Assembly: GCA_023055505.1 (NCBI GenBank)
Contig: JALIRH010000001.1
Coordinates: 120,377,723 to 120,441,722 of the forward strand
DNA: 64,000 nucleotides
Source: Callipepla californica brunnescens
Taxonomy: Eukaryota > Chordata > Aves > Galliformes > Odontophoridae
Direction of reading: 5' to 3'
Shown here: positions 16,340 through 17,090 of the stretch, piece after piece
How positions within the stretch are numbered: position 1 is the stretch's first letter
Layout: the number at the start of each line of letters is the position of its first letter
The notes under the pieces: model-generated
The model's database searches: none
What the model saw: the letters and a program-made list of their open reading frames with translations, nothing else
Told to the model about the DNA's origin: nothing
Program-made: the position numbers and the translations under genes

Positions 16340-16365
16340 ATAACCAGACTGCTGCATTTTCTCCC
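16340..16365 (+). promoter_or_regulatory. TENM4: Probable displaced branch point and pyrimidine tract of the second coding exon
   Basis: The sequence agaataaccagactgctgca runs into ttttctccc. It contains a TAAC branch-point core (16341-16344) about 20 bases before a pyrimidine tract that stops exactly where the CR1 element begins. It looks like a 3' splice site cut off from its AG by the insertion. The reading is inferred from layout. Confidence 0.45.
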
Positions 16366-16818
16366 AGAGGAGGGCCACCAAGATAGTCAGAGGGCTGGAG
16401 CACCTCCCTTACAAAGATAGGCTGAAGGAGATGGACTTTTTCAGTCTGGAGGAGAGAGAAGGCTGAGGAGAGTTCTCATTATAACCCTCCAGAATTTAAA
16501 GGGAGATTATAAACAGAAGGGAAATAAACTTTTTACATGGGTAGATAGTGATAGGATGTGGGAGAATGGTTTTGAACTTATAAAGGAGGGAAAATATAGA
16601 TTAGATGTCAGGAGGACATTTTTCACTGAGAGGGTGGTGAGATGCTGTAACAGGCTGCACAGAGAGGTCATGGTTGCCCCATTCCTGGAGGTGTTCAAGT
16701 CCAGGTCAGATGGAGCCCAGGGCATTTTGATCCAGTACTGCCTGTAGCAGGGGCATTGGAACTTGATGATCCTCGAAGTCCCTTCCAACCCCAAACCTTT
16801 CTACAATTCTGTGATTCC
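16364..16818 (+). mobile_element. CR1 LINE 3' fragment abutting an exon acceptor
   Basis: Plus-strand, 5'-truncated CR1 of about 455 bp. It starts at the conserved cagaggagggccac of ORF2. It passes through the C-terminal reverse transcriptase region (broken by stops, for example TAG at 16418-16420) and the 3' UTR ('ggttgccccattcctggagg'). It ends with cttgatgatcctcgaagtc, ccttccaaccccaaacc and the octamer tail attctgtgattc. The next bases are cag and then exon sequence, so the element's tail forms the region immediately before the TENM4 acceptor. The insertion is diverged, so not very recent. Confidence 0.93.
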
Positions 16819-16820
16819 AG
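16819..16820 (+). promoter_or_regulatory. TENM4: 3' splice acceptor of second coding exon, with CR1-derived upstream region
   Basis: The AG at 16819-16820 restores the TENM4 frame (Gly75-Ala76-Asn77-Phe78). Of the 20 bases before it, 14 are pyrimidines, and nearly all belong to the CR1 tail. A possible branch site inside the CR1 is ttgat at 16763-16767, about 54 bases upstream. Confidence 0.85.
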
Positions 16821-17090
16821 GAGCCAACTTCTCTTTGCGAGAGCTGGGTCTTGAAGACGTGACGCCCACCCATGGGACTTTGTACCGGACTGATATTGGG
16901 CTGCCTCACTGCGGCTACTCCATCAGCGCTGGCTCAGATGCCGACACGGAGGCGGATGTGGTCATGTCACCTGAGCACCCCGTGAGGCTCTGGGGACGCA
17001 ACACCAAATCCGGACGCAGCTCCTGCTTGTCGAGCCGGGCCAACTCCAACCTCACCCTCACGGACACGGAGCATGAGAATACCGAAACCG
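16821..17090 (+). CDS. TENM4: Teneurin-4, second coding exon (completes Gly75, residues 76-164)
   Basis: Continues the cytoplasmic N-terminal domain of teneurin-4. The frame is ANFSLRELGLEDVTPTHGTL, then YRTDIGLPHCGYSISAGSDA, later MSPEHPVRLWGR and SSCLSSRANSNLTLTDTEHE. The segments GTLYRTDIGLPHCGYS and RANSNLTLTDTEHENTET point to TENM4 rather than its paralogues. There is no membrane span, EGF repeat or proline-rich SH3-binding segment yet; these belong to later exons outside the window. The stretch is acidic and rich in Ser/Thr, consistent with the soluble intracellular domain. The exon is 270 bp, enters and leaves in phase 1, and ends accg|gtaagt. It is unusual in that its acceptor lies directly behind a CR1 insertion. 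No frameshift or premature stop is present, so the gene appears intact. Confidence 0.95.

Follow-up and report, generated by a model that had tools for sequence, protein, structure and literature searches.

Retroelement insertions at an acceptor are normally expected to result in exon skipping. The window, by which we mean the whole stretch of 64,000 nucleotides of Callipepla californica brunnescens DNA that was analysed, is a stretch of TENM4 with two coding exons (11629-11851 and 16821-17090; Table 1), and a CR1 retrotransposon ends directly before the second of them. This raises the question of which sequences now form the 3' splice site of that exon, and whether the exon is still spliced in. 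The exon itself has an intact frame and is bounded by consensus splice dinucleotides (AG before, GT after). It was expected to be an intact and conserved TENM4 exon, and indeed all 90 of its residues are identical to the golden pheasant teneurin-4 models P0225 and P0226, as are 75/75 residues of the upstream exon. Joined together, the two exons read ...EFCRA-G-ANFSLREL..., and the domain assigned to homologues of the downstream exon is the teneurin N-terminal domain (PF06484).

The original prediction placed a plus-strand CR1 at about 16364-16818, ending with its own octamer tail and followed by CAG/GAGCC (here and below, the slash marks the exon boundary), and an element of this kind is located at 16364-16817, with the CAG at 16818-16820. 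We take it to be a CR1, in agreement with the octamer match, and homology was established from copies in the window rather than from a repeat library. The element aligns to a CR1-like copy at 27304 with 324/470 identities (69%, E 2e-64), and several weaker copies are present elsewhere in the window. The alignment begins exactly at CCAGAGGAGGGCC; as the copy at 27304 has sequence further upstream of this point, the copy beside the exon is 5'-truncated there. The length of a full CR1 is given as 4.5 kb in the accessible part of a study on galliform CR1 elements (PMC2169234). The tail comprises a full octamer unit, ATTCTGTG at 16806, between the mutated unit TTTCTACA and the partial unit ATTC, and can be compared to the avian CR1 octamer ATTCTRTG, which is described as being preceded by a 3' hairpin (PMC8665684, available in part). 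The K2P distance between the two aligned copies is 0.361 over 441 sites, suggesting that both may be old.

The tetranucleotide CCAG is found on both flanks of the CR1, and also within the copy at 27304; it likewise fits the ancestral acceptor of the target. Because CCAG stands at both ends, the edges of the element are uncertain by a few bases (5' edge 16364-16368, 3' edge 16816-16818). CR1 is said to insert without a target-site duplication (PMC2169234, same part), and the CCAG pair could be either microhomology between CR1 and its target or a 4-nt duplication.

Table 1. Features around the CR1 insertion in TENM4 (positions in the window).
Feature	Position	Strand	Description
First TENM4 coding exon in the window	11629-11851	+	223 nt, MDVKERKPYRS...EFCRA-G, ends in phase 1, donor GTGAGT
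Ancestral 3' splice site, complete	16343-16367	+	ATAAC branch-site candidate (A16343), tract CTGCTGCATTTTCTCCC, AG 16366-16367
CR1, 5'-truncated, sense	16364-16817	+	454 nt; from alignment to the copy at 27304 and octamer tail
In-frame TAG	16418-16420	+	ends translation after 91 residues (17 codons past the junction) if AG 16367 is used
AG-free CR1 3' end, candidate branch region and pyrimidine tract	16779-16817	+	nearest AG upstream of the new one ends at 16778
CR1 octamer tail	16798-16817	+	TTTCTACA-ATTCTGTG-ATTC; matches octamer ATTCTRTG
CAG acceptor adjoining the exon	16818-16820	+	97.1th percentile of 9,365 AGs (rough matrix); junction in 3 golden pheasant models
TENM4 exon beside the CR1	16821-17090	+	270 nt, GANFSLREL...NTET-G, phase 1-1, donor GTAAGT

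The state of the locus before the insertion was assessed from relatives in the form of translated open reading frames (ORFs), a collection in which ORFs with a broken frame cannot appear. A pattern scan identified 41 ORFs that run from the intron into the exon among the matches listed (120 of 137), four of which are avian-like with 93-99% identity to the query. One of these four, P0004, reads MRDETTPYRRVTRLLCSLPG/ANFSL. When the flank upstream of the CR1 is joined to the exon, the window reads MLDKTVPR*RITRLLHFLPG/ANFSL, and P0004 is identical to this joined site at 12/20 residues in exact register. Against all 127,882 six-frame 20-codon stretches, the 20 intronic residues of P0004 match window positions 16310-16369 best (11/20, next best 8; E 0.004 by tblastn against the window), which are the codons just 5' of the CR1 in the frame of the exon; the sequence lying next to the exon today does not rank in the best 8 of the 127,882. 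A clean pre-insertion site, which the original prediction implied should exist in other lineages, is therefore found at the protein level, and in this one avian-like cluster the amino acids 5' of the exon correspond to the old flank and not to a different sequence.

The mammal-like run-through ORFs among the matches listed provide a second comparison. Four out of 11 (P0012, P0013, P0014 and P0016) end in FLPG, like the old site (TTT CTC CCA G), the other seven (P0015, P0017, P0021, P0022, P0024, P0025 and P0027) end otherwise, and none of the 11 has the CR1-type ending IPG. The common FLPG may be regarded as supportive. Together with the mammal-like endings, the match of P0004 at the old flank indicates that this flank represents the ancestral end of the intron, and that the CR1 was added between it and the exon. 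The opposite polarity, in which an ancestral CR1 was exactly deleted in the lineage of P0004, or an assembly artefact at the junction, seems to us very improbable. Although polarity depends on one avian-like empty-site cluster and the mammal-like sequences, a precise loss that restores a working acceptor would be an improbable event, the mammal-like endings (no IPG, four times FLPG) do not fit with it, and ORFs with the CR1 tail occur on several contigs (8 for P0001, 1 for P0002 and 13 for P0003).

The relatives carrying the CR1 tail differ in how much of it they show. P0001 and P0002 start with MILEIPSNPNLSVIPG/ANFS, the translated CR1 tail, and three changes to the DNA of the window (a substitution, a deletion of 1 nt and the loss of one 8-nt unit) yield exactly these residues, the DNA of both being deduced from the residues. 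P0003 starts with MIPG/ANFS, which fits an octamer end RTG ATT CCA G; in this case the evidence for the CR1 consists of three residues. The initial M of P0003 may stand for ATG or GTG (RTG), as a GTG start is also given as M by some gene finders. Over the 90 residues of the exon, P0003 does not differ from the window, whereas P0001 differs at one and P0002 at two positions. P0002 and P0003 run on into the downstream intron, where their amino-acid identity to the window is 85% and 88%, respectively, over 74 residues, and they are therefore close relatives. The lack of further carriers is uninformative, because a broken frame keeps an ORF out of the collection. At the amino-acid level, this appears to be a presence/absence locus, with P0001, P0002 and, on three residues, P0003 as carriers and P0004 as empty. 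Compared to window positions 16766-16820, the CR1-derived tract of P0001 and P0002 fits one octamer unit fewer, so the tract at the splice site may vary by microsatellite slippage.

The insertion did not break up the old acceptor. The TAAC core and the pyrimidine tract before the CR1 were described earlier, and the tract GCTGCATTTTCTCCC is present as described; what had been missed is that this tract has its own AG (16366-16367) right after it. A complete old acceptor, CTGCATTTTCTCCCAG, thus stands 453 nt upstream of the new one, and it was left whole by virtue of the CCAG present at either end of the CR1. The proposal that the CR1 landed between the tract and the CAG, moving the old branch point and tract by about 455 bp, holds insofar as the CR1 sits between the old flank and the exon and the displacement is 453 nt, but the splice site was displaced as a unit rather than split. 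To compare acceptors, we used a splice-site matrix of approximate frequencies, whose scores rank sites and do not measure their strength. The two strands of the window contain 9,365 AGs, and among these the rough matrix places the old AG at the 99.0th percentile and the acceptor of the first coding exon (11562), taken as a control, at the 99.8th. The old acceptor outscores the new one (5.63 versus 3.97), and they are the top two of the 60 AGs in 16301-16900.

The tract of the new site is only moderate: 11 of the 17 bases at -20 to -4 are pyrimidines, compared to 13 at the old site, and among random 17-mers these 17 bases rank at the 82.8th percentile. A count by eye agrees with the 14 out of 20 pyrimidines given for the CR1 tail in the original prediction. 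When 16 positions at the ends of CR1 copies were scored (five copies in the window, including the one beside the exon), the tract ranked between the 55th and the 96th percentile, so that the pyrimidine bias of CR1 3' ends is moderate at best. Within the AG-free CR1 3' end, the branch-site motif yUnAy points to A16788 (CCAAC), A16795 (CAAAC) and A16803 (TCTAC) as candidates, with A16766 (TTGAT) just upstream. A distant branch point, that of the old site, could in principle serve the new AG, but we rejected this possibility: with 52 AGs lying between the old AG and the new AG, such a branch point would not be expected to act that far downstream. As use of the old site leads to a stop after 17 codons and these 52 AGs separate the sites, the new AG most likely relies on the CR1 tail for both its branch point and its tract, such that the 3' end of the element would have been recruited for the exon.

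These observations can be combined into a possible course of events. A 5'-truncated CR1 would have been reverse-transcribed into the TENM4 acceptor, at the CCAG immediately 5' of the exon, in the ancestry of a galliform-like bird. A CCAG common to CR1 and target, or a 4-base duplication, would leave an AG on either side of the element, with the old branch site, tract and AG staying complete at their present distance from the exon. The new AG would then be served by the pyrimidine-leaning 3' end of the CR1, with the octamer tail as the tract and a branch point in the 40 AG-free nt that precede it or shortly before them. Exon definition should favour the shorter exon, which is 270 nt with the new site and 723 nt with the old one; this, together with decay of transcripts with an early stop, would favour the new site, and the old site would probably be used rarely.

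The higher score of the old acceptor makes it necessary to consider that both acceptors are used, with the stronger old one adding 453 nt and an early stop, thereby lowering TENM4 output, and the new one making the protein. The old acceptor is intact and scores better than the new one with the rough matrix (99.0th versus 97.1th percentile), and the product of the old site is readily defined, comprising 91 residues up to the TAG at 16418. However, the extended exon would be 723 nt, and the 17-residue CR1-encoded end matches none of 343 proteins, which include all 102 matches to the product itself; this is weak evidence, as such transcripts should be degraded. All in all, we consider the use of both acceptors unlikely. 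Somewhat bolder, and in our opinion doubtful, is the idea that two acceptors, 453 nt apart, have been in lasting competition as a result of the insertion, an ancestral one that is stronger but unproductive and a CR1-derived one that is weaker but productive. Their balance would set TENM4 output in galliforms, and the number of octamers (about 2.5 units here, about 1.5 deduced for P0001) would tune the CR1-derived site.

Gene models bear on the question of whether the exon is spliced in. The galliform models are three golden pheasant ones recognised among the matches listed (120 of 267), and all three (P0225, P0226 and P0241) join the two exons exactly at 16820/16821, as seen in protein models rather than in intron DNA. 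P0241 departs from the exon shortly before its end, differing at 6 of the final 7 residues, and the golden pheasant models may be projected from other species. In the Callipepla squamata model P0126, the first exon is joined to an intronic ORF matching 13731-13868 of the plus strand (93% identity over 46 residues to the end of P0126), without the exon beside the CR1. Though it is a galliform record, P0126 looks like a failed gene model, because the exon that follows in TENM4 reads DHPPNL..., as P0226 shows, and the piece joined in P0126 is a different one. Models from Bubo (owl) and Melopsittacus (budgerigar) also join oddly at this position (P0242, P0243, P0244 and P0249), so gene models are noisy here and constitute weak evidence either way. 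For use of the CR1-side acceptor the evidence from gene models is therefore mixed, with three golden pheasant models among the matches listed in favour and one Callipepla model against.

Read at face value, P0126 would be in line with a weakened acceptor and an exon that is now often skipped in birds with the CR1. The exon is symmetric (270 nt, phase 1-1), such that skipping keeps the frame and loses 90 residues of the intracellular domain, and an in-frame loss would also explain why the insertion was tolerated. Moreover, in the accessible part of a report on NF1, all four de novo Alu insertions in acceptors, three in the tract and one in the AG, went together with skipping of the downstream exon (PMC3219598). 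On the other hand, the exon is nearly unchanged in the carriers of the CR1 tail (0-2 differences out of 90 residues), it is included in the three golden pheasant models among the matches listed, and P0126 is doubtful for the reason given above. The expected skip junction, CRADHP or CRTDHP, was found in 0 of 343 proteins, which is weak evidence as many of these were gathered with exon-containing queries. Frequent skipping thus appears rather improbable to us, and we favour retention of the exon. Overall, we estimate the probability at about 0.8 that a CR1 inserted at the TENM4 acceptor, that its 3' end serves the new AG and that the exon is retained.

Further along the window, additional features were observed. 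A candidate alternative last exon of TENM4 is located at 24551-24634 on the plus strand, with a strong-looking acceptor (CTCTTTTGTCCTTTTCAG/AC), a fitting phase (G/AC) and the ORF DIRPYMLLESERVRYILTSSQESHRVLF followed by a stop; models of Grus japonensis (P0008) and Columba guinea (P0026) have similar ends. If used, this exon would give a teneurin-4 with the intracellular domain only. At 59059-59296, the pentanucleotide TCCCT is repeated perfectly about 48 times, and a CTTTTT-type array is found at 60970-61164.

When compared to known systems, the TENM4 CR1 is a variant of transposon-splicing biology; no description of this insertion was found among the matches listed, which comprise titles and abstract openings with thin coverage of subscription journals. 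As in transposon exonization, by CR1 in chicken or Alu in primates, a retroelement gives splicing signals to a host gene. According to the part of one study that is available, exonizations in chicken come mostly from CR1, and in SINE exonization an antisense poly(A) supplies the tract (PMC2911107). In contrast, the TENM4 CR1 would lie outside the mRNA on the reading favoured here, and would serve a conserved, pre-existing exon, in sense orientation and with an octamer tail instead of poly(A). De novo Alu and L1 insertions into 3' splice sites, for example in NF1, have the same position, in the tract or AG 5' of an exon (PMC3219598, same part), but those lead to skipping and disease, whereas the TENM4 CR1 appears in more than one lineage and its exon is intact. 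Polymorphic Alus near exons likewise place a retroelement close to an exon; in the accessible part of the source, a depletion of them is described for the 100 bp next to exons, and splicing was changed in 5/23 of those tested (PMC6326789). The TENM4 CR1 differs from these in that it is at distance zero and looks old. Finally, intronic CR1 elements present in some galliform lineages and missing in others have been described, again as far as the source is available (PMC2169234), but those are phylogenetic markers inside introns, whereas the TENM4 CR1 is on a splice site.

The TENM4 CR1 looks like the reverse of the outcomes known for Alu, in that the acceptor was hit and the exon retained. This apparently old insertion beside an exon of a neural gene would represent a natural experiment, both on the minimum of sequence from which a 3' splice site can be rebuilt and on the features that make a hit in an acceptor tolerable: here a symmetric exon, a duplicated AG and a pyrimidine-leaning CR1 tail. 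As the exon is symmetric and skipping would stay in frame, this may be why the insertion could spread. More generally, sense CR1 tails may act in birds as portable modules of branch site and pyrimidine tract.
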